Virus record (IMG/VR): IMGVR_UViG_3300009604_000095
Span: 1 to 23,097 of that record
Length of the DNA stretch: 23,097 nt
Source: a virus
Reading direction: 5' to 3' (one strand)
The notes under the pieces were generated by a model, which saw nothing but the letters and a program-made list of their open reading frames with translations, did not search any database and was not told the DNA's origin. The position numbers and the translations under genes are program-made. Positions 12,051 to 20,486 of this stretch are shown here, one piece after another; the stretch's first letter is position 1, and every line of letters begins with the position of its first letter.

Positions 12051-12365
12051 TCACATCTCCTTCATTCCGTCTGTAAACCGCTCCAGTGGAGCCATTAACG
12101 GTGTCATCTGACCATCTGTCAACTGAATAGGAACGGCTAGCTCGGGGTCCACCTTAACGAACTGGGTCCGACCCCCCTCCACAAAGAAGACTCGCACCTG
12201 GCTGCCATCCCAGCTATCAACCCACCCCAGTGGAACTGGCGCCCCCCTAGACCCCCCGCCTACTGAAACAGCAAAACCCCGCAGGTTCAAACAACCTGCC
12301 AAGTGACGAGCGCTACTCAGCAACCGCTGGCAATAGAAACAGTAGACGTTGCTTTTAGTCCCCAT
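12051..12365 (-). CDS. Small protein with N-terminal CxxC, unknown function
   Basis: This 104-residue protein starts at ATG 12365. The N-terminus has CFYCQRLLSSARHLAGC (C-x2-C-x12-C), a possible incomplete zinc site. The rest is beta-rich (GWVDSWDGSQVRVFFVEGGRTQFVKVDPELAVPIQL) and ends with Met/Thr-rich sequence. The SD is weak. The gene follows a 294-base gap that contains an orphan copy of the plus-strand leader element, so its transcription may begin in that gap. The family is unknown. Confidence 0.65.
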   Translation of the reverse strand: MGTKSNVYCFYCQRLLSSARHLAGCLNLRGFAVSVGGGSRGAPVPLGWVDSWDGSQVRVFFVEGGRTQFVKVDPELAVPIQLTDGQMTPLMAPLERFTDGMKEM

Positions 12366-12659
12366 GGAGAGAACTCTACCAGAAGCTGACCGAAAGAGAG
12401 CACCACAAACTTACAGTTTGTGAAATTGCGGCACAGCCGCAATCCCCAACGGGAGATCAAGGACCGCGACTGCACCGCAAGGGGGGATACTGGCTGAAAC
12501 CGTGTAGAACGGCACCAAAACCGCCGGTATTGCCTCGCAAGATGGGGGCAAGCGAGAGCTAGTGCGTACAAAGGAACGTGCAGACTACTAATATTCCGCT
12601 AACTACCAAATATGATTAGATTTTAGCACGTTTTGAGCAAAATGTACAGCCCGCCTAAC
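12366..12659. other. Intergenic region with hairpin, orphan leader element and AT-rich segment
   Basis: This gap separates two minus-strand genes. It holds a perfect hairpin (12425-12443), an orphan copy of CAACGGGAGA (12447-12456) and a run of G at about 12481-12486. An AT-rich stretch (about 12585-12645) could supply a promoter for the leftward genes, but no good -35/-10 pair is clear. A plus-strand frame of about 66 codons is open across it from 12359, but it has no usable start codon, so I do not call it a gene. Confidence 0.6.
12425..12457 (+). promoter_or_regulatory. Orphan leader element: hairpin plus CAACGGGAGAT, no gene start after it
   Basis: The stem ATTGCGG (12425-12431) pairs perfectly with CCGCAAT (12437-12443) across the loop CACAG. 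Three bases later comes CAACGGGAGAT (12447-12457), the exact element found before eight plus-strand genes at 14386-18717. No ATG, GTG or TTG follows at the expected 4-7 bases. Confidence 0.7.
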
Positions 12660-13479: not shown

Positions 13480-13493
13480 GTGTGTTCCCCCTT

Positions 13494-13583
13494 AAGTAAG
13501 GTAAGTAAGTAAGTAAGGTAAGTAGAGTAAAGGTAAGGTAAGGGGTAGGTAAAGGTAAGTGAGGTAAGTGAGGTAAGGTAAGT
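13494..13583. repeat. Degenerate GTAAG/CTTAC tandem array
   Basis: About 90 bases are made of GTAAG units with 4- to 6-base spacing and small insertions (AAGTAAGGTAAGTAAGTAAG and similar). On the minus strand it reads as a pyrimidine-rich CTTAC repeat immediately upstream of the gene starting at 13479. It could arise by replication slippage or act as an iteron-like or leader sequence. Confidence 0.85.
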
Positions 13584-13674
13584 ACGCGCTGGGGGGTTAT
13601 CGTGTGTATGGGGGGCAGTCGCTACGCGACAATGGTTGTTTATTAATAGGTCCGCCGCCAGGGTACCCCCCCTT

Positions 13675-13734
13675 GCGCGCACGCACGCACATACCCGCAC
13701 ACCCACGCATACACACGTGCGCACCTACGCGCGT
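13675..13734. repeat. Alternating purine-pyrimidine (CA/CG-rich) tract
   Basis: About 60 bases are dominated by CG and CA dinucleotide steps (GCGCGCACGCACGCACAT, then ACACACGTGCGCAC). This composition can adopt Z-form DNA under supercoiling. TGCGCGCACG near its left side and CGTGCGCA near its right are imperfect inverted repeats. Confidence 0.7.
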
Positions 13735-13754
13735 TAGGGACAGCCCATCACCCC

Positions 13755-13774
13755 GATTGGAGCGCAGTACACCG
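13755..13774 (+). repeat. Direct repeat copy 1
   Basis: GATTGGAGCGCAGTACACCG matches the copy at 13901-13920 at 19 of 20 positions. A shorter related copy, CAGAGCAGTCCACCG, lies between them at 13816-13830. Both full copies are followed by TTTACA, immediately here and after 14 bases for copy 2. Confidence 0.8.
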
Positions 13775-13900
13775 TTTACAAAGTCGCCAGCCCGCAAGAT
13801 ACCGCCAGTCCACAGCAGAGCAGTCCACCGCTTGAGAGCAGCCCCAACAAGGTCGACAAGGGTCTCAGCTAGGCTCAACATCGGACAAAGGAGCGCATCG

Positions 13901-13920
13901 GATTGGAGAGCAGTACACCG
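13901..13920 (+). repeat. Direct repeat copy 2
   Basis: GATTGGAGAGCAGTACACCG is the second copy of the repeat at 13755-13774. Spaced repeats in a divergent region suggest operator or iteron binding sites for a phage regulator or initiator. Confidence 0.8.
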
Positions 13921-13942
13921 AATAGGGCAAAGAGTTTACATA

Positions 13943-14047
13943 ATGAGTATTATCAGACGTAACGGTCTGCAAGCTCCTGATATGATTGGAATCAAGGGGT
14001 GTTATTGGCAGGGTGTGAATCAAGGCGGAGCATGGTCTCGAGTCTAG
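13943..14047 (+). CDS. Possible 34-residue ORF in the control region (doubtful)
   Basis: ATG 13943 begins a short frame (MSIIRRNGLQAPDMIGIKGC and so on, ending GGAWSRV). It lacks a good SD and the shared leader element that precedes every downstream gene. The same DNA holds inverted repeats (CAGAC 13954-13958 with GTCTG 13965-13969; TATCAG 13951-13956 with CTGATA 13977-13982), so it may be a structured non-coding segment. Confidence 0.2.
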   Translation: MSIIRRNGLQAPDMIGIKGCYWQGVNQGGAWSRV

Positions 14048-14058
14048 GAGCACAGTAA

Positions 14059-14106
14059 AGACCCCTTCGCAGACCCCTTCGCAGACCCCTGAAAAGACCC
14101 CGAAAA
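14059..14106. repeat. Four-unit 12-bp tandem repeat (AGACCCC-N5)
   Basis: Units at 14059, 14071, 14083 and 14095 each begin AGACCCC. The first two are identical (AGACCCCTTCGC); the last two end TGAAA and GAAAA. The regular one-turn-plus spacing is iteron-like. Confidence 0.85.
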
Positions 14107-14359
14107 CAGCCCGGCAGCCTGGCCTAGCGCGCGTGCAGCTCGCGCATGTAGGCGTCCAAGGTGCCGTTTTGCGCTTTTTTGGGGAGCGCCAAACCTTCCA
14201 AAATCCCTCAAATCAAACCCACCCAAAACGCCCTAGAATCACCAAACAACCCAACTCCACAGATTTATTTTGCTCTGCTGAAACGTACACTGCGCCGCAT
14301 TGTGAAAAAAAGATGAAGAAATACCGACACTAATATTAATATGTTGCTACCTTGTGGTT

Positions 14360-14395
14360 GAGCCCAGAGCGTTTCTGGTCTCGAACAACGGGAGA
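14360..14395 (+). promoter_or_regulatory. Leader element 1: hairpin plus CAACGGGAGA
   Basis: The hairpin GAG-C-CCAGA / TCTGG-T-CTC (14360-14382, loop GCGTT) ends three bases before CAACGGGAGA (14386-14395). The start ATG is at 14400. The GGGAG core is the ribosome-binding site; the invariant flanks go beyond an ordinary SD. Confidence 0.8.
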
Positions 14396-14399
14396 CAAA

Positions 14400-14651
14400 A
14401 TGAAGCCGGGACAAGCAGTGCTATTCCACGCAAGAAAACTAGGATTCAATGAAGACGAGAAACCCCACAGCGACAATGGGAAGGTCGGTATCATCATCAG
14501 GAAAACAACCACGGAAGATACCCACAACGGTTACCACTTCACGGCTGGAGCGCAGGATGTCCAAACTTGTGTCGGTCGGTATCTGGTAGATATTGACGGA
14601 AAGGAGCGCCACGTTTGGGAAGGATACCTGTTCCCGTTCGTGAGCCGATAG
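14400..14651 (+). CDS. Small protein, first gene of the leader-element cassette, unknown function
   Basis: This 83-residue protein starts at ATG 14400, fixed by the shared CAACGGGAGA leader; an in-frame upstream start at 14352 lies before the leader hairpin and is rejected. The sequence begins KPGQAVLFHARKLGFNEDEK, then GKVGIIIRKTTTEDTHNGYHF, GRYLVDIDGKERHVWEGYLF. The 'G..VLF....GKVG.I......Y.V.i.G.....' pattern suggests a small SH3/KOW-like beta barrel, similar in style to part of the protein at 15938-16459. No named family is recognised. Confidence 0.75.
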   Translation: MKPGQAVLFHARKLGFNEDEKPHSDNGKVGIIIRKTTTEDTHNGYHFTAGAQDVQTCVGRYLVDIDGKERHVWEGYLFPFVSR

Positions 14652-14656
14652 CACAG

Positions 14657-14692
14657 CAAATCCGGGGGGATTTGAACCACTACAACGGGAGA
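14657..14692 (+). promoter_or_regulatory. Leader element 2: G-loop hairpin plus CAACGGGAGA
   Basis: CAAATCC (14657-14663) pairs perfectly with GGATTTG (14668-14674) around the loop GGGG. CAACGGGAGA follows at 14683-14692, and the start codon is at 14700. Confidence 0.85.
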
Positions 14693-14699
14693 AAACAAG

Positions 14700-15575
14700 A
14701 TGAACGACCGAGGACAAATCAAGCAAATCAAGCAGAGTGTCTGGAGCGTGACGATGCCCGCTGGGGTTAGGCGTCGCCGATACTCCGAGACCTTTACTTT
14801 CAACTTCGCTCGGCTCTGCTTGGCAACGTGCGCTCTCTTCGTCTCCGCTGGCAATTCCAAGATGAAGAAGACAGCCAAAAAGCTGGCGAAGCTGTGGAGC
14901 CATCCGGTCCGAATGGTCAGCTTCAACATTCCCGCCCTACTCGCTTGTCCCTTCGCCGATGCATGCATCAAATTTTGCTACGCTCTGATGGGTCGCTTTG
15001 CCATGAGGGACGCTCAAAAGGTCCGTGCTGGCAATCTGGCAATGCTCCGAGAGTTGTACAACCGAGGCGGAGTCGACCTAGTCGCTCAAACCATCGCGAA
15101 TTCTCTCTGGCCGGACATGCGACGCAGCCTGAAAAAAGGCCAGCGTCTGGTCATCCGAGTGCATGATAGCGGCGACTTCTTCTCACTCTGGTATGCACAA
15201 GCATGGGCTGACGCCTATCGCCTAATCTGTGCCCGCTGGGTTGCCGAAGGTGGAAGCGCTGACATGCTTCCATTGCCCTACGCTTACACTAAGGCACTCA
15301 AGCACTTCGCAGCTGTGGACTTCGGATTCCCTGTCACGCAGTCAGTCGGTGGAATCGCAGACGGGGCGATTGACTACACGGAGAGTCACTCGGTGGTTTT
15401 CGGAACTGTCGAGGAGTGCGAGGCGGCGGGCTACGTCAACGGGACCGATAGCGATATCCCTGCCATCCTTGGAGAGACCAAAATCGGCCTCATCTATCAC
15501 GGGAACGAAGCGAAGGTAGAAGACGTCAGAGAGCACCTTAGAAGCGCTCCACGGGCTCTGCCGATGGCTGCGTAG
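14700..15575 (+). CDS. GP88-family phage protein
   Basis: This 291-residue protein matches my recollection of the phage 'gene product 88' family, first named in mycobacteriophages. Its molecular activity is not established. Diagnostic parts are FNIPALLACPFADACIKFCYA with Cys83, Cys89 and Cys93 (C-x5-C-x3-C), and RVHDSGDFFSLWYAQAW near residues 153-169. Family members generally show 'C......C...CYA' followed by 'R.H.SGDF.S..Y...W'. The three closely spaced cysteines recall a metal or iron-sulfur site, which would be a prediction only. The start at 14700 is set by the shared leader element. There is no membrane segment. Confidence 0.85.
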   Translation: MNDRGQIKQIKQSVWSVTMPAGVRRRRYSETFTFNFARLCLATCALFVSAGNSKMKKTAKKLAKLWSHPVRMVSFNIPALLACPFADACIKFCYALMGRFAMRDAQKVRAGNLAMLRELYNRGGVDLVAQTIANSLWPDMRRSLKKGQRLVIRVHDSGDFFSLWYAQAWADAYRLICARWVAEGGSADMLPLPYAYTKALKHFAAVDFGFPVTQSVGGIADGAIDYTESHSVVFGTVEECEAAGYVNGTDSDIPAILGETKIGLIYHGNEAKVEDVREHLRSAPRALPMAA

Positions 15576-15585
15576 GGGTAGGGCT

Positions 15586-15619
15586 CACAGGGGGGTCTGT
15601 GGACACTAACAACGGGAGA
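15586..15619 (+). promoter_or_regulatory. Leader element 3: G-loop hairpin plus CAACGGGAGA
   Basis: CACAG (15586-15590) pairs with CTGTG (15597-15601) around the loop GGGGGT. CAACGGGAGA lies at 15610-15619, with ATG at 15624. Confidence 0.85.
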
Positions 15620-15623
15620 TAGG

Positions 15624-15884
15624 ATGCGATTTTTAACTGTGCTTTGTGTGCTCTTTGTGCTGGCAGGGTCTGCGATGGCTGGCGAGTGTGATGGGATGGT
15701 GATTGTCGAACGGGTGGAAGGGGAGTTTGCTGTGTTGGAAGGCGGGGGCGAATTGTGGGTGCAACGGATGACAGGCGAGCGGCAAGACCAGTGGGTGGAA
15801 GGGACGGTGGTGAGCGGGGACAAGCAGTGCGGGGTTCAACTCAGGCTGGAGGTGTCAAGGTTGCTCGAACGGTTGGACAAATAG
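15624..15884 (+). CDS. Small secreted protein, DUF3006-like
   Basis: This 86-residue protein starts at ATG 15624. The N-terminus MRFLTVLCVLFVLAGSAMAG is a clear Sec signal peptide with a likely AMA cleavage site. The mature part VIVERVEGEFAVLEGGGELWVQR resembles the DUF3006 pattern 'v.DRiEgd.AVlE'. QWVEGTVV and a C-terminal helix follow. Two cysteines (CDG and QCG) in the mature part could form a disulfide. Export of a small phage protein suggests an envelope role, such as modifying the surface, but this is inference. The family match is by eye. Confidence 0.75.
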   Translation: MRFLTVLCVLFVLAGSAMAGECDGMVIVERVEGEFAVLEGGGELWVQRMTGERQDQWVEGTVVSGDKQCGVQLRLEVSRLLERLDK

Positions 15885-15899
15885 GGTCCACGGGGGGCA

Positions 15900-15933
15900 T
15901 GAAATCAGGAGCTTTCACTTTTACAACGGGAGA
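15900..15933 (+). promoter_or_regulatory. Leader element 4: weak hairpin plus CAACGGGAGA
   Basis: A GGGGGG run (15892-15897) is followed by TGAAA (15900-15904) pairing with TTTCA (15913-15917), then CAACGGGAGA (15924-15933) and ATG 15938. The stem here is shorter than in elements 1-3. Confidence 0.75.
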
Positions 15934-15937
15934 TAAC

Positions 15938-16459
15938 ATGAACAATTTGCCATCGCACGCACTCGAAACCTTGAACACTCTCATCACGTACCATGACAGG
16001 AACGCAGAGCATGGCAGGACGGTAGCGGAAGCGCTTGAAATCCTGCGGGCAATCCTGGGTGGGAACATCCTGCCCGAACTGCCCGCCGAGAGAGCAGACC
16101 ATGTCGCCATAGGGCAAGCGGATTTGTATGACGCAGCAGATGCGGCGCGGGCAGAGGCGGCGCCTACCTCGCACCGGTTCAAGGTGGGGGACCGGGTTGT
16201 ACTCCGGCGGGACGTGGAGCGATACCCGAACGCGACGATCGCCAAGGGTTCAACCGGTACGGTCATCAGCACGCCCAGCTACCTATCAGTCCACCTAGAC
16301 GACAAGGTTGAAGGACTTAATCACGGTTGGCTTGTCAAGCACACCGCAGGGGACCACCCTTGCCCGGCGCATACTGGGCTTCAAAGGGGACACGCCCTAG
16401 TCTGGAGTGAAGAGCACTACAAAGACCTACAGCGCGACCTGACTGCTACCACCAGCTAG
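15938..16459 (+). CDS. Protein with C-terminal SH3/KOW-like segment, unknown function
   Basis: This 173-residue protein starts at ATG 15938, fixed by the shared leader. The N-terminal half is helical (HALETLNTLITYHDRNAEHGRTVAEALEILRAIL). A charged linker follows, then a beta region HRFKVGDRVVLRRDVERYPNATIAKGSTGTVISTPSYLSVHLDD. Its 'F..GD.V.......ipkGs.GtV......v.V..D' pattern is typical of small SH3-like barrels. A Cys/His-containing tail (DHPCPAHTGLQRGHALVW) ends the protein. I do not recognise the family or role. Confidence 0.78.
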   Translation: MNNLPSHALETLNTLITYHDRNAEHGRTVAEALEILRAILGGNILPELPAERADHVAIGQADLYDAADAARAEAAPTSHRFKVGDRVVLRRDVERYPNATIAKGSTGTVISTPSYLSVHLDDKVEGLNHGWLVKHTAGDHPCPAHTGLQRGHALVWSEEHYKDLQRDLTATTS

Positions 16460-16470
16460 GGCAACAATTC

Positions 16471-16497
16471 AGGGGGGTTAACTATGACAACGGGAGA
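16471..16497 (+). promoter_or_regulatory. Leader element 5: G-run plus CAACGGGAGA
   Basis: A run of six G (16472-16477) is followed by TTAACTATGA and CAACGGGAGA (16488-16497); the start ATG is at 16502. No strong hairpin is seen. An in-frame ATG at 16484 lies inside the element and is not the likely start. Confidence 0.75.
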
Positions 16498-16501
16498 CGA
16501 T

Positions 16502-17047
16502 ATGAACGATTGGAAATTCGAGAATCAGACGAGTGGCAACGCTGTCCGGGTCAACGCCGGTCTCGGCAACACAGCATGGTCTCGGGTGCTGTCCGATGGT
16601 CGCACGGCATGGCTGACGGACCCGGAGACCGGGCAGGCACCGACAGACCCTGAGTGTGTGAGGCTGCACGTCTACCCCGCTGACGGGGTGCGAGACCCTG
16701 TGCTGGTGGGTCTGATGCCGCTGTCGGTGGCGTTCCTCAGGGTGGAGGGGCTGGTGGTGGATGAGCCGTGGATTGCTGGTCCGCATCTCTGCACGGGACA
16801 GAGCGAGAACAATCGGTGGTTCTGGTTCTCCGGCGAGATGCCAACTGACTTGACAGCCAGAGAGGAGGCAATCCTCGACAGGATTACAGACCTCTTTGCC
16901 GAGGGCTGCTCTTGGCAGGAAGGGGTTCGGCCCGAGGTGCATGAGGGGACAGGCAGCGTTGACATGGCTGGGTGGCCTGATGGTGTCGCCTTCGGCCCGT
17001 GGTTCGCTGCGCTGATGCAGCGGGAGGGGGTGCAAGTCTACGATTGA
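16502..17047 (+). CDS. Phage accessory protein of unknown function
   Basis: This 181-residue acidic protein starts at ATG 16502, fixed by comparison with the other leader elements. It is beta-rich at first (NAVRVNAGLGNTAWSRVLSDGRTAWLTD, RLHVYPADGVRDPVLVGLMPLSVAFLRVEGLVV). A helical segment follows (TAREEAILDRITDLFAEGC) and then a Trp/Gly-rich end. No motif I can name and no membrane segment. It is part of the same transcriptional set as its neighbours. Confidence 0.75.
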   Translation: MNDWKFENQTSGNAVRVNAGLGNTAWSRVLSDGRTAWLTDPETGQAPTDPECVRLHVYPADGVRDPVLVGLMPLSVAFLRVEGLVVDEPWIAGPHLCTGQSENNRWFWFSGEMPTDLTAREEAILDRITDLFAEGCSWQEGVRPEVHEGTGSVDMAGWPDGVAFGPWFAALMQREGVQVYD

Positions 17048-17048
17048 G

Positions 17049-17084
17049 GCAGGTGAGGGGGGGGTTAACCACTGCAACGGGAGA
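17049..17084 (+). promoter_or_regulatory. Leader element 6: G-run hairpin plus CAACGGGAGA
   Basis: GCA(g)GTG (17049-17055) pairs with CACTGC (17070-17075) around a loop holding eight G. CAACGGGAGA is at 17075-17084 and ATG at 17089. Confidence 0.75.
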
Positions 17085-17088
17085 CAAG

Positions 17089-17391
17089 ATGGAAAGCATG
17101 ACGATTTTTGTGGAGTACATGGCGTGCTTGGGTTGCTGGATGGTGTCCGGTCTGGTTGACGGGGACACCGAGGCCGAGCCCTTTGATACGCTGGACTTTG
17201 ACAACAAAGAGGATGCGATTGCATACGCTTCGGAGACTCGCGACGGTTGCCTTGACCGCTACGAGGTGACCCTGCTGGTGGGTGGCAACGAACGCAAACC
17301 AGCGCGCCGCCGGCCTGAGCCTACCATCTACGAGCAGCACAGTTGCGACCGTGATTTGGAGAACGCGCTTGACGCAGAGGAGTGGCAGTAG
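17089..17391 (+). CDS. Small acidic protein of unknown function
   Basis: This 100-residue protein starts at ATG 17089. It begins ESMTIFVEYMACLGCWMVSG with a CLGC (CxxC) pair, then an acidic stretch (DTLDFDNKEDAIAYASETRDG) and a beta strand (YEVTLLVGG). A basic linker (RKPARRRPEP) and an acidic end follow. The first 65 residues look like one small alpha/beta domain of the type 'y.v......F....eAi.yA.......Y.V.l'. No family is recognised. It immediately precedes the methyltransferase and shares the same leader. Confidence 0.72.
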   Translation: MESMTIFVEYMACLGCWMVSGLVDGDTEAEPFDTLDFDNKEDAIAYASETRDGCLDRYEVTLLVGGNERKPARRRPEPTIYEQHSCDRDLENALDAEEWQ

Positions 17392-17400
17392 GGGTTCGCA

Positions 17401-17425
17401 GGGGGCAACAACCAACAACGGGAGA
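17401..17425 (+). promoter_or_regulatory. Leader element 7: G-run plus CAACGGGAGA
   Basis: Five G (17401-17405) sit in the loop of a weak GGTT/AACC stem. CAACGGGAGA follows at 17416-17425, with ATG at 17433 (or 17436). Confidence 0.7.
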
Positions 17426-17432
17426 CGGTACC

Positions 17433-18674
17433 ATGATGAAAATCGGAAGCATGTTCAGCGGGATAGGCGGCCTCGACCTGGCAGCAGAGCGGGCCTTTGA
17501 TGGTGAGCTGGCGTGGGCTGTGGAGCGTGAGCCCCACTGCGTCAAGGTGCTCCGGCGGCACTGGCCCGAGGCGCAGGTGGTGGAGGACGACGTGCAGCAG
17601 GTGGACCCGTCCAAGCTGTCGCCGGTCTCCGTCCTGACAGGTGGTTTTCCGTGTACTGACCTCTCGGTGGCTGGCAAGCGGGCAGGGCTCGACGGTGAGC
17701 ACAGCGGGCTCTACTCGGAGGTGCTGCGGTTTGCTGGGGTGCTCAAGCCTGAGTGGCTGGTGTTGGAGAACGTGATTGGGGTGCTCAAGTACCGGGAGCG
17801 CATCGAGGCTGACCTGTCCCAACTAGGCTACGGGTCGGCGTGGGTGCAGCGTGCGGCCTCGGACGTGGGTGCCCCTCACTGGCGGCGGCGGGTGTTCATC
17901 ATCTGCAAGCGGGGAGGTGAGCACCTCGGGGTCATCAATAAGCACGGCAAAATCCCCGGTGGATTCTGGCCCACTGCGGTGGCTGACGGGGACCGGGTTG
18001 CGATGTTCAAGCAGGGCGGCGAGCCTCTCGGGCGTGCTGTCCGCTGGCCGGAGGGCAGCAGGTGGCCCACTGCCACCGCTCGCGATTGGAAGAGCGGTAG
18101 CGCCAGCGCTGCGACCATGCAGAGGAACTCTCGACCGCTGGCCGAGGTTGTCCGCTGGCCCACGGCAGTGGCTGGTGATGCCAAGGCATGTGGTAGTCGC
18201 AACACCCCAGGGTCGAAGGCTCACAAGGGCGTCACGCTGACGGATGCAACACGAGGCGACGGTGGCACGGGTCGGCTCGGCAAACGTCGCCCAGGCAGGC
18301 TCAATGCCGACTGGGTGGAGACCCTGATGGGGTTCCCGATTGGCTGGACCCTGCCAGAGGGGCGCAACACCCACGCCAAGATGGGCGCCGGAGGCTGGAC
18401 AAAGTTTCCCAGCCGCTGGCCTGCTGGCAGGGGTGAAGAGCAGCACGGGTGGGAGCCTCCGCGCCTGCTGGAGGGCAAACCTGTGAAGGGGCGACCGGCG
18501 AGGCTGAGGGCTCTCGGCAACGCAGTGGTGCCAAAGCAGGGGTTCGTCGCCATCGTGGATGCCCTGGCTGCCATCGAGCGGGCAGAGTTGGGGGAAGAGG
18601 GGGTGCAGCGGGAGCTGGACGACTTCATCGGGCGCCAGATGCACCTCGACCTGGGGTTCTTCGAGCGCAATTAG
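17433..18674 (+). CDS. C5 cytosine-specific DNA methyltransferase (phage Dcm-type)
   Basis: This 413-residue enzyme transfers a methyl group from S-adenosylmethionine to cytosine C5, probably protecting phage DNA from host restriction. Motif I is MFSGIGGLDLAAE (residues 7-19), motif IV GGFPCTDLS with catalytic Cys74, motif VI ENV (112-114), motif VIII VQRAASDVGAPHWRRRVF (138-155) and motif X LGNAVVP (361-367). The target-recognition region holds three WPTA repeats (FWPTAVADGDR, RWPTATARDWK, RWPTAVAGDAK), as often seen in phage Dcm-like enzymes. RLNADWVETLMGFPIGWT precedes motif X. It looks complete and active. No restriction nuclease lies beside it, so it is an orphan methylase. Confidence 0.95.
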   Translation: MMKIGSMFSGIGGLDLAAERAFDGELAWAVEREPHCVKVLRRHWPEAQVVEDDVQQVDPSKLSPVSVLTGGFPCTDLSVAGKRAGLDGEHSGLYSEVLRFAGVLKPEWLVLENVIGVLKYRERIEADLSQLGYGSAWVQRAASDVGAPHWRRRVFIICKRGGEHLGVINKHGKIPGGFWPTAVADGDRVAMFKQGGEPLGRAVRWPEGSRWPTATARDWKSGSASAATMQRNSRPLAEVVRWPTAVAGDAKACGSRNTPGSKAHKGVTLTDATRGDGGTGRLGKRRPGRLNADWVETLMGFPIGWTLPEGRNTHAKMGAGGWTKFPSRWPAGRGEEQHGWEPPRLLEGKPVKGRPARLRALGNAVVPKQGFVAIVDALAAIERAELGEEGVQRELDDFIGRQMHLDLGFFERN

Positions 18675-18707
18675 GTACTAGTGGTGTGTGTGTGTTAACA
18701 GTGACAA

Positions 18708-18717
18708 CAACGGGAGA
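18708..18717 (+). promoter_or_regulatory. Leader element 8: CAACGGGAGA
   Basis: CAACGGGAGA sits four bases before ATG 18722. It is preceded by a GT repeat (18680-18696) rather than a G-run; no strong hairpin. Confidence 0.75.
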
Positions 18718-18721
18718 TGCT

Positions 18722-19297
18722 ATGTCTGGTCGCGATTATCCACAGCTACGAATTGTGCCCGTCACTTTCAACGCGGCGTGCGCCTATATTGAGAGCACGC
18801 ATCGTCACCACCAACCACCAAGGGGGTACAGGTTCGCACTCGGGGTGGCCGATAAGGGGGGGGTGTTGCGCGGCGTGCTGGTTGCCTCACGCCCAGTTGC
18901 TCGGGTGTTGGATGACGGCTGGACTTGTGAAGTGTCCAGGGTCGCCACTGATGGTGCCAAAAATGCCCGCTCCATGCTCTATGGGGCCGCAGCACGGGTG
19001 GCAAAGGCGATGGGCTTTGCGAGGATAATAACTTACACCCTACACACGGAACCAGGCACCAGCCTGCGCGCCGCTGGGTGGACAAACGATCATCGCACAA
19101 GAGGTAGCGAGGGCTGGAGAAACAGACCGGGGTTTAACCGCTCCTCGTTCCCAACCACCGACAAGAACAGGTGGGTGCGAGTGTTCATGGATACACCACC
19201 AGAGCCTCCACCCACTTGCGCACCACCAGCCCCTAACGGACAGCTCGCACTCTTTAACTCAGCGGGACAAGGCTCTGCCGAGGAGGTGACATCGTGA
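18722..19297 (+). CDS. GNAT-like phage protein (XF1762-type)
   Basis: This 191-residue protein starts at ATG 18722, set by the last leader element. The pattern FNAACAYIESTHRHHQPPRGYRFALGVADKGGVLRGVLVASRPVARVLDDG, then CEVSRVATDGAKNARSMLYGAAARVAKAMGFARIITYTL and GTSLRAAGW, matches a phage/prophage family I recall as XF1762-like and related to GNAT acetyltransferases. The 'R..tdg.KNA.S.LYgAAar.A.a.G....iTYTL..E.G.SLraaGW' core fits the acyl-CoA-binding region of that fold. The substrate is unknown. A Pro-rich tail follows. The gene ends in GTGA overlap with the next gene. Confidence 0.85.
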   Translation: MSGRDYPQLRIVPVTFNAACAYIESTHRHHQPPRGYRFALGVADKGGVLRGVLVASRPVARVLDDGWTCEVSRVATDGAKNARSMLYGAAARVAKAMGFARIITYTLHTEPGTSLRAAGWTNDHRTRGSEGWRNRPGFNRSSFPTTDKNRWVRVFMDTPPEPPPTCAPPAPNGQLALFNSAGQGSAEEVTS

Positions 19298-19557
19298 GCA
19301 GATGGAAGACGACGTGGCTGCTAGTGCCAGGGGTGGGGCGCCATGGGACGGCTGCCATGGACCTGTGCAGGGCAGGGGGCAGCTACCTGGGGGCAAACAA
19401 GTACGTGCGGTGTCCTGGCGCTCGCGTGCTTGCGGATGTGGTGGCTGTGCTAGATGCAGCCGGTCTGGAATACCAGGAAGTGGACAAACCTGCGATGCCG
19501 AGGCTCACCAAAGAGAAAGCCTACGTCGTCGCGCAAAGTTGGGAGGTGATACTGTGA
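19294..19557 (+). CDS. Small protein of unknown function (GTG start)
   Basis: This 87-residue protein starts at GTG 19294, which overlaps the previous stop (GTGA), with GAGGAGGTG upstream. It has a basic N-terminus (SRWKTTWLLVPGVGRHG), Gly-rich middle, a Cys pair, and the helical segment ARVLADVVAVLDAAGLEYQE. The C-terminus is Lys-containing and aromatic. No family is recognised. From here on, genes are joined by translational overlaps, not by the leader element. Confidence 0.7.
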   Translation: MSRWKTTWLLVPGVGRHGTAAMDLCRAGGSYLGANKYVRCPGARVLADVVAVLDAAGLEYQEVDKPAMPRLTKEKAYVVAQSWEVIL

Positions 19558-19823
19558 GAAAGAAGAAGAGCAACACACTTGGACGAACGGACGTGACGGG
19601 AGCCCAGTTCAGGTACTTTCGAGAGAACGTGCTGGACATGACAAGAGAGAAGGTTGCGGTCGCATTGGGCATGTCTGTGCAGAGCATTATCACGGCAGAA
19701 CAACGGGGTCGAGGGTACATCCAGTCAAGCCTCGCCATTCGCATCACCAACGGGGAGAAGAGGGACGTCACCATCCGCGTGGAGTGCAACCTCGACCCTG
19801 ATAGAATGGGGGACGTTGAATGA
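19554..19823 (+). CDS. Small HTH (XRE-like) protein
   Basis: This 89-residue protein starts at GTG 19554, overlapping the preceding stop (GTGA) with GGGAGGTG upstream. The segment GAQFRYFRENVLDMTREKVAVALGMSVQSIITAEQRGRGYIQSSLAIRITNGEK follows the XRE pattern: 'lt.e.vA..lGmS.qsI...E.......'. The N-terminus is a basic KKKSN stretch. It is probably a DNA-binding regulator controlling the cassette or the downstream genes. Its own operator is not visible. Confidence 0.78.
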   Translation: MRKKKSNTLGRTDVTGAQFRYFRENVLDMTREKVAVALGMSVQSIITAEQRGRGYIQSSLAIRITNGEKRDVTIRVECNLDPDRMGDVE

Positions 19824-20359
19824 ATGTCGAAGACGTGATCTCCATGGCGCTCGCAGAACAGGGGCTGGAGTACAGCCCCGAGGTGGTGGCTGGCTGGCTC
19901 CAGCATGACAACCCACCACCGGACCTGGCGCCCATCATTGACGCGATGGTGACTGACATCGACTACCTCATCCGGGTGGTGCAGGCCAAGATGCTTGCAT
20001 CACCCGACATCACCGAGCCTGAGCTGCGTAAGATGGCAGGGCTGCCCAAGATGACAAGGAGGATGGCGGCAGGGGAAAACTACCGGCGGGCGATGGGCTA
20101 CGAGAAGATCCACATCACACTTGCCGTCCCACGCCACATCAAAGAGACCATTGATGCCATGTCTCGTGCGATGAGCGTCACTCGGTCAGGCTTCGTGTCA
20201 CAGTGGTTGATTGGCTGCGCCCAGGAGGCACTGTGCAGGACAGCAGAGGTGCATGGATTGCCAGAGAAGGAAGCGCACATGGCACGCAACCATCCCAGCG
20301 GGAGAGGCAGGCCAATTGTCTACGAAACAATCAAGCGCATCTACCGCTCCAAGAGTTGA
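19820..20359 (+). CDS. Protein with ribbon-helix-helix-like segment, possible regulator
   Basis: This 179-residue protein starts at ATG 19820, overlapping the upstream stop in ATGA. The first half is helical and acidic (DLAPIIDAMVTDIDYLIRVVQAKML), followed by a basic segment (RKMAGLPKMTRRMAAGENYRRAM). Residues from IHITLAVPRHIKETIDAMSRAMSVTRSGFVSQWLIGCAQEAL look like a ribbon-helix-helix: one strand then two helices, with 'SR..FV..WL' in the second. The C-terminus is basic (PSGRGRP). It may act as a repressor with the preceding HTH protein. No exact family is recognised. Confidence 0.78.
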   Translation: MNVEDVISMALAEQGLEYSPEVVAGWLQHDNPPPDLAPIIDAMVTDIDYLIRVVQAKMLASPDITEPELRKMAGLPKMTRRMAAGENYRRAMGYEKIHITLAVPRHIKETIDAMSRAMSVTRSGFVSQWLIGCAQEALCRTAEVHGLPEKEAHMARNHPSGRGRPIVYETIKRIYRSKS

Positions 20360-20372
20360 AACAATCCCTTTG

Positions 20373-20401
20373 CATTGTGTGTTATGCTCGTGCATAAATG
20401 A
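20373..20401 (+). promoter_or_regulatory. Possible promoter upstream of the holin-like gene
   Basis: TTGCAT and CATAAA are separated by 17 bases in the 127-base gap after the RHH-like gene. This is a moderate sigma70-like match and would serve the holin-like gene at 20487. An alternative -10 is TATGCT in the same segment. Confidence 0.35.
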
Positions 20402-20486
20402 CAGCACTGAGAGGCACTGGTCTCGACGTGCTGGTGGGGTCGGGTTGGCGGCAGCTCGGCCTCACCTAATCCCTGCCGGCAGGCCA

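Follow-up and report, generated by a model that had tools for sequence, protein, structure and literature searches.

Why should eight consecutive genes of one virus open behind the same leader? The question is raised by IMG/VR virus record IMGVR_UViG_3300009604_000095, a 23-kb fragment analysed here over its full 23,097 nucleotides (the window), in which the 10-mer CAACGGGAGA stands just upstream of eight adjacent plus-strand genes. This element is more than a plain Shine-Dalgarno (SD) site, and it is very probably a counterpart, with a new sequence, of the start-associated sequences (SAS) named by Pope et al. in cluster K mycobacteriophages (PMC3203893). A ninth copy places the antisense of the leader on the loop of a long hairpin, and we consider it plausible, if still tentative, that an antisense hairpin RNA regulates the leader genes by blocking ribosome binding.

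Exact copies of the 10-mer number nine on the plus strand of the window and zero on the other strand, where base composition would yield about 0.05 over both strands; with one mismatch allowed there are 11 matches, against 1.9 +/- 1.3 in shuffles. Eight copies precede the ATGs of the eight consecutive genes, at the positions given by the original prediction and at a distance of either 4 or 7 nt. Aligning these leaders leaves ten of ten columns invariant, with identity dropping sharply on both sides, and spacers and downstream codons differ among the genes. Seven of the eight are preceded by A, so that the element is nearly an 11-mer, (A)CAACGGGAGA. All eight leader copies lie on the plus strand, in one block and before ATG codons, and the minus-strand genes, terminase and recombinase included, have none. 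Elsewhere in the window, starts use varied sites, such as GAGGAGGTGA or AGGAGG, and among loci chosen independently of the motif, only the leader of a related contig, G062, has CAAC immediately ahead of a GGGAG SD. Conservation beyond the SD, as originally proposed, is thus upheld. The leaders are predicted to pair only moderately with the anti-SD (-7.4 to -10.1 kcal/mol, compared with -17.4 at the start of gene 19294); the 10-mer contains GGGAG, a moderate SD at a normal distance from the start, and so probably serves as a ribosome binding site. CsrA-type recognition was considered and dropped, as the motif lacks ANGGA.

The original list of copies, correct for the eight linked to starts, missed the ninth (12447-12456), which precedes no start: it lies in a noncoding gap of 294 nt that separates minus-strand genes, with neither a start codon nor an open reading frame (ORF) behind it. 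Predicted folding of this gap is stronger on the minus strand (z -4.35) than on the plus strand (z -2.62), and an Rfam scan of the gap returned no family above its gathering score. Within it lies the longest stem of the window, with 25 bp compared with 15 bp in the next-longest, and its nine G-U pairs make the hairpin strong only in minus-strand RNA. The loop of this hairpin and its flanks spell UCUCCCGUUG, the exact antisense of the leader; by a rough estimate, the chance of a specific 10-mer landing antisense on such a loop is about 1e-5. The antisense 10-mer is predicted to pair with each of the eight leaders at -17.2 to -17.8 kcal/mol and with 25 other starts at -2.0 to -13.5, and opening the four apical hairpin pairs is predicted to cost about 4 kcal/mol. 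For the extended loop sequence, mean pairing over the eight leaders is -22.5, as opposed to -12.6 for 500 shuffles, the best of which reached -19.2.

The gaps between the leader genes hold a second conserved part. All seven measure 41-53 nt, and in six a tract of five to eight G residues separates the stop codon from the leader; five of the eleven runs of six or more G in the window fall within these 320 nt of gaps (P ~2e-7).

We propose that the 10-mer ties eight adjacent genes together into a single post-transcriptional unit. In the mRNA, its position suggests that the leader, through GGGAG, would act as the ribosome binding site. Transcription of the leftward unit would yield a structured minus-strand RNA (12366-12659) displaying CUCCC within UCUCCCGUUG; this RNA would pair with the leaders, cover the SD and shut all eight genes down together, and CCCCC, in another open loop, could bind the G-tract further upstream. 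The leader would then be invariant beyond the SD because pairing with the antisense RNA demands it. We infer the making of the RNA, its pairing with the leaders and its block of initiation from the sequence. A base-pairing RNA partner, suggested by the antisense ninth copy, was not among the readings of the original prediction.

Features of the leader block and of the minus-strand gap, in window coordinates (MFE, minimum free energy)
Feature	Positions	Strand	Remarks
Eight-gene block served by leaders	14400..19297	+	includes GP88, C5 methylase and Mom-like genes
SAS-like leader CAACGGGAGA	14386..14395	+	4 nt before ATG 14400
SAS-like leader	14683..14692	+	7 nt before ATG 14700 (GP88)
SAS-like leader	15610..15619	+	4 nt before ATG 15624
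SAS-like leader	15924..15933	+	4 nt before ATG 15938
SAS-like leader	16488..16497	+	4 nt before ATG 16502
SAS-like leader	17075..17084	+	4 nt before ATG 17089
SAS-like leader	17416..17425	+	7 nt before ATG 17433 (C5 methylase)
SAS-like leader	18708..18717	+	4 nt before ATG 18722 (Mom-like)
G-tract, second conserved gap part, before gene 14700	14664..14669	+	
G-tract before gene 15624	15590..15595	+	
G-tract before gene 15938	15892..15897	+	
G-tract before gene 16502	16472..16477	+	
G-tract before gene 17089	17057..17064	+	
G5 tract before gene 17433	17401..17405	+	
Noncoding gap, proposed antisense RNA	12366..12659	-	MFE -103.7, z -4.35
Uninterrupted 25-bp hairpin, 9 G-U pairs, 5-nt loop CUCCC	12426..12480	-	longest stem in window
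UCUCCCGUUG, exact antisense of leader 10-mer	12447..12456	-	spans loop (12455-12451) and flanks
CCCCC open loop, possible partner of leader G-tract	12544..12548	-	89-96% unpaired (predicted)
Promoter-like TGTACA-17-TAAAAT, extended -10, at upstream gap edge	12620..12648	-	weak: fewer sites than shuffles
Terminator-like 9-bp hairpin, after long hairpin	12403..12423	-	weak consensus match

The original prediction had compared the leader with cluster K SAS of a different sequence, and its position and its conservation beyond the SD bear this comparison out. Both are short, near-invariant elements at the ribosome binding sites of many non-structural genes, in one orientation and before ATG starts, and both are conserved beyond the SD core within 3-7 nt of those starts (eight of eight in the window, at 4 or 7 nt). 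Cluster K SAS are confined to the right half of the genome with the non-structural genes (PMC3203893). The two differ in sequence, the cluster K consensus being GGGATAGGAGCCC (with GGGATAGGAG throughout the cluster K matches listed) and that of the window (A)CAACGGGAGA, and they belong to different phages. In cluster K, 17-bp inverted repeats with promoter-like sequence lie upstream of about half of the copies (extended SAS, ESAS), whereas the window gaps hold no 17-bp inverted repeat of this type and have the G-tract instead. SAS genes are mostly more than 50 bp from their upstream neighbour; the seven window gaps span 41-53 nt.

The likeness extends to a single additional, inverted copy that lies apart from any gene start. 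In 2011, Anaya, Adephagia, Angelica and CrimD were reported to carry one inverted SAS each that is not at a gene start (PMC3203893); the role of SAS was described as unknown in that paper and as ill-defined in 2024 (PMC3203893, PMC11373665). We located the inverted SAS close to the right end, in a stretch where few or no genes are annotated: in a gap measuring 385 nt in Anaya (L366 29683-30067), 432 nt in Adephagia (L386 1948-2379) and 422 nt in CrimD (L368 28612-29033), and in Angelica inside a small annotated ORF, gp92, within the same homologous stretch. In all four phages it forms an open 10-nt hairpin loop, CCUCCUAUCC. The gap folds with z -5.96 in Anaya and z -7.14 in CrimD, the hairpin stem carries compensatory changes at four pairs (13 phages), and 177 mycobacteriophage records contain homologs of the Anaya gap. 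These results also point to a structured RNA of large size that is similar across those records; an Rfam scan of the gap in one phage, Adephagia, gave nothing above the gathering score.

In RNA-seq of Adephagia, late transcription appears to begin between genes 92 and 93, and its early lytic genes, 44 to 88, lie upstream (PMC11373665). The interval between genes 92 and 93 is the gap that holds the inverted SAS, and a late leader RNA silencing the SAS genes would fit this order. With somewhat more reserve than for the window itself, we suggest that silencing of an identical-leader gene group by one hairpin RNA may be a design reached in two unrelated lineages, the window phage and cluster K1, the K1 hairpin sitting in the late-start gap so that late transcription would turn off early genes. 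What is new here is the finding of the K1 inverted SAS in an exposed hairpin loop and of an unrelated phage with the same layout. Together they give SAS a concrete hypothesis, an antisense RNA silencing a set of phage genes through one common leader, which is testable in Mycobacterium smegmatis with existing cluster K phages.

Other known systems share parts of this arrangement. Microbacterium phage AnnaSerena has ten near-identical motifs at ribosome binding site positions with an upstream companion motif, although the motif itself is a different one, GGGAAAGGACCCC. The C4 antisense RNA of phages P1 and P7 binds an upstream site with one loop and covers the ribosome binding site with another (as described in PMC5320573). 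The CUCCC and CCCCC loops of the window are predicted to be open and complementary to the leader and the G-tract. The Rfam C4 model found no match in the window among results up to E = 1. C4 is processed by RNase P from a longer transcript, and the candidate RNA of the window differs from it in that its targets would be eight leaders. Staphylococcus aureus RNAs with UCCC loops, for example RNAIII, bind the SD sequences of several mRNAs (PMC3861533); they resemble the candidate RNA in using C-rich hairpin loops for SD pairing, but they are bacterial regulators with diverse targets, whereas the targets in the window have one invariant leader.

Relatives of the window phage show how far the leader extends. 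The left part of the window (recE, recT, a dnaC-like loader and terminase) is colinear with contigs whose terminases are 53-59% identical, most of which are fragments without the leader region; searches for relatives with single proteins (methylase, GP88) found none. The methylase, genes 19820 and 12660 and the 21549 protein all have homologs in G062 (37 kb; terminase 53% identical), where one exact leader copy, ACAACAACGGGAGACAAGGACA-ATG, stands before a 292-codon gene. G062 also has a repeated leader of its own, GGGCAGGAGGATCGAGAG-ATGGA, before two adjacent genes (L331 16943-16960 and 16709-16726, minus strand), and similar leaders, GGGCAGGAGG and GCCGGGAGGCAA, before other genes. In G055, which covers part of the equivalent region, the leader was not found. 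Four copies of CAACGGGAGA precede the ATGs of small genes in G065, an apparently unrelated phage, where three small genes (18790-20426; L361 18790 to L362 426) each follow a near-identical leader some 37 nt long (ACGTCTGAAATTACACACAACAACGGGAGACAATC), which holds the 10-mer and extends over most of the intergenic space. When loose spacing was allowed, scans for the leader yielded single matches for the most part. Of the phage-specific signal originally proposed, the start-associated element therefore stands, and its restriction to this phage does not, as exact copies precede one gene in G062 and four in G065.

Several observations weigh against regulation by an antisense RNA. The RNA is a prediction from sequence and folding, its gap is present in one assembly only, and the promoter-like and terminator-like matches bracketing the hairpin are both weak. 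Only CUCCC is unpaired in the window hairpin, GUUG lying within the stem, and pairing does not account for the A that precedes seven of the eight leaders. Antisense copies were sought and not found in G065, G062 or the genome of AnnaSerena. In cluster K, we predicted that the SAS and the loop would strictly co-vary, and this failed: an exactly complementary loop is confined to K1-type phages and Amelie; the loop pairs imperfectly in Ekdilam and Hammy (one bulge) and in Phrank, Syra333 and Cain (two mismatches), and is absent, though SAS is present, in Marshawn, LeMond, Keshu, SirPhilip and TribleTrouble. An SAS system thus does not depend on an antisense hairpin, which may have a role in particular lineages only.

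The main rival, which we regard as possible though rather doubtful, takes the leader for a strong phage ribosome binding site (an A/C-rich unpaired CAAC followed by GGGAGA), perhaps read by a phage protein or modified ribosome, with the hairpin incidental. Position and spacing fit, and the leaders of AnnaSerena and G065 recur without an antisense copy. Of 121 cases of ACAACGGGAGA followed by ATG in other viral contigs, 74 begin an ORF of 60 codons or more, compared with 27% for any ATG, and many ACAACGGGAGA-ATG sites have CAA-rich flanks. However, anti-SD pairing of the leaders is below that of several other window starts, and a strong binding site leaves the extra copy on the loop of the longest hairpin to a coincidence as rare as the rough estimate given above. 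It is unlikely that the 12447 copy is the relic plus-sense leader of a lost gene, on a hairpin that merely ends or protects minus-strand transcripts. CAACGGGAGATCAAGGAC (window 12447-12464) does resemble the G062 leader CAACGGGAGACAAGGACA (L331 17886, minus strand) beyond the 10-mer, the two having CAAGGAC after it with a one-base offset. This likeness hints at an inverted copy of a leader as the origin of the antisense hairpin, yet such shared ancestry would explain the antisense origin and leave a function possible; moreover, the copy opens no gene, and 25 consecutive pairs, nine of them G-U, restrict the fold to minus-strand RNA.

Recent spread of the leader copies with gene gain, by duplication or short-homology recombination, would make their identity a matter of descent and not of function. 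The uniform gaps built from the same two parts, and the G065 leaders that cover most of the intergenic region, speak for this account; we judge it decidedly unlikely, given that identity in the window ends at the edges of the 10-mer, with spacers and downstream codons that differ, and that the core is kept in G062 despite the divergence of its terminase. The recombination seam put forward in the original prediction is not supported: identity drops at these same edges, and no genome with cassettes swapped there was found. An ordinary strong SD conserved by chance is scarcely credible: GGGAG is contained in the leader, but ten invariant positions in eight genes, at starts unlike the others of the window, contradict it.

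Among the leader genes, the GP88 and C5 methylase labels of the original prediction are confirmed by family matches (4e-18, Pfam, and 6e-38, respectively), whereas its DUF3006-like label finds no Pfam or PHROG support and the gene that it called GNAT-like (ATG 18722) matches Mom-like DNA modification proteins instead (phrog_1384, 1.4e-31). The remaining leader genes have no family match above its curated cut-off. The C5 methylase and Mom-like genes are adjacent (window 17433-19297) and have the common leader, which suggests joint control of DNA modification.

A chimeric origin of the window was considered; G062 holds homologs from both halves on a single contig, which makes it unlikely. Three contigs are 100% identical to the window over its left part, and two of these, from other samples (L314 and L315), end at 12233-12243, a stop that may reflect either a variable region or a problem in the assembly. 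Between the divergent gene blocks, positions 13480-14385 form a mostly noncoding stretch of 900 nt with repeats of TAAGGTAAGTAAG at 13493-13584 and a pair of 20-nt repeats at 13755 and 13901.

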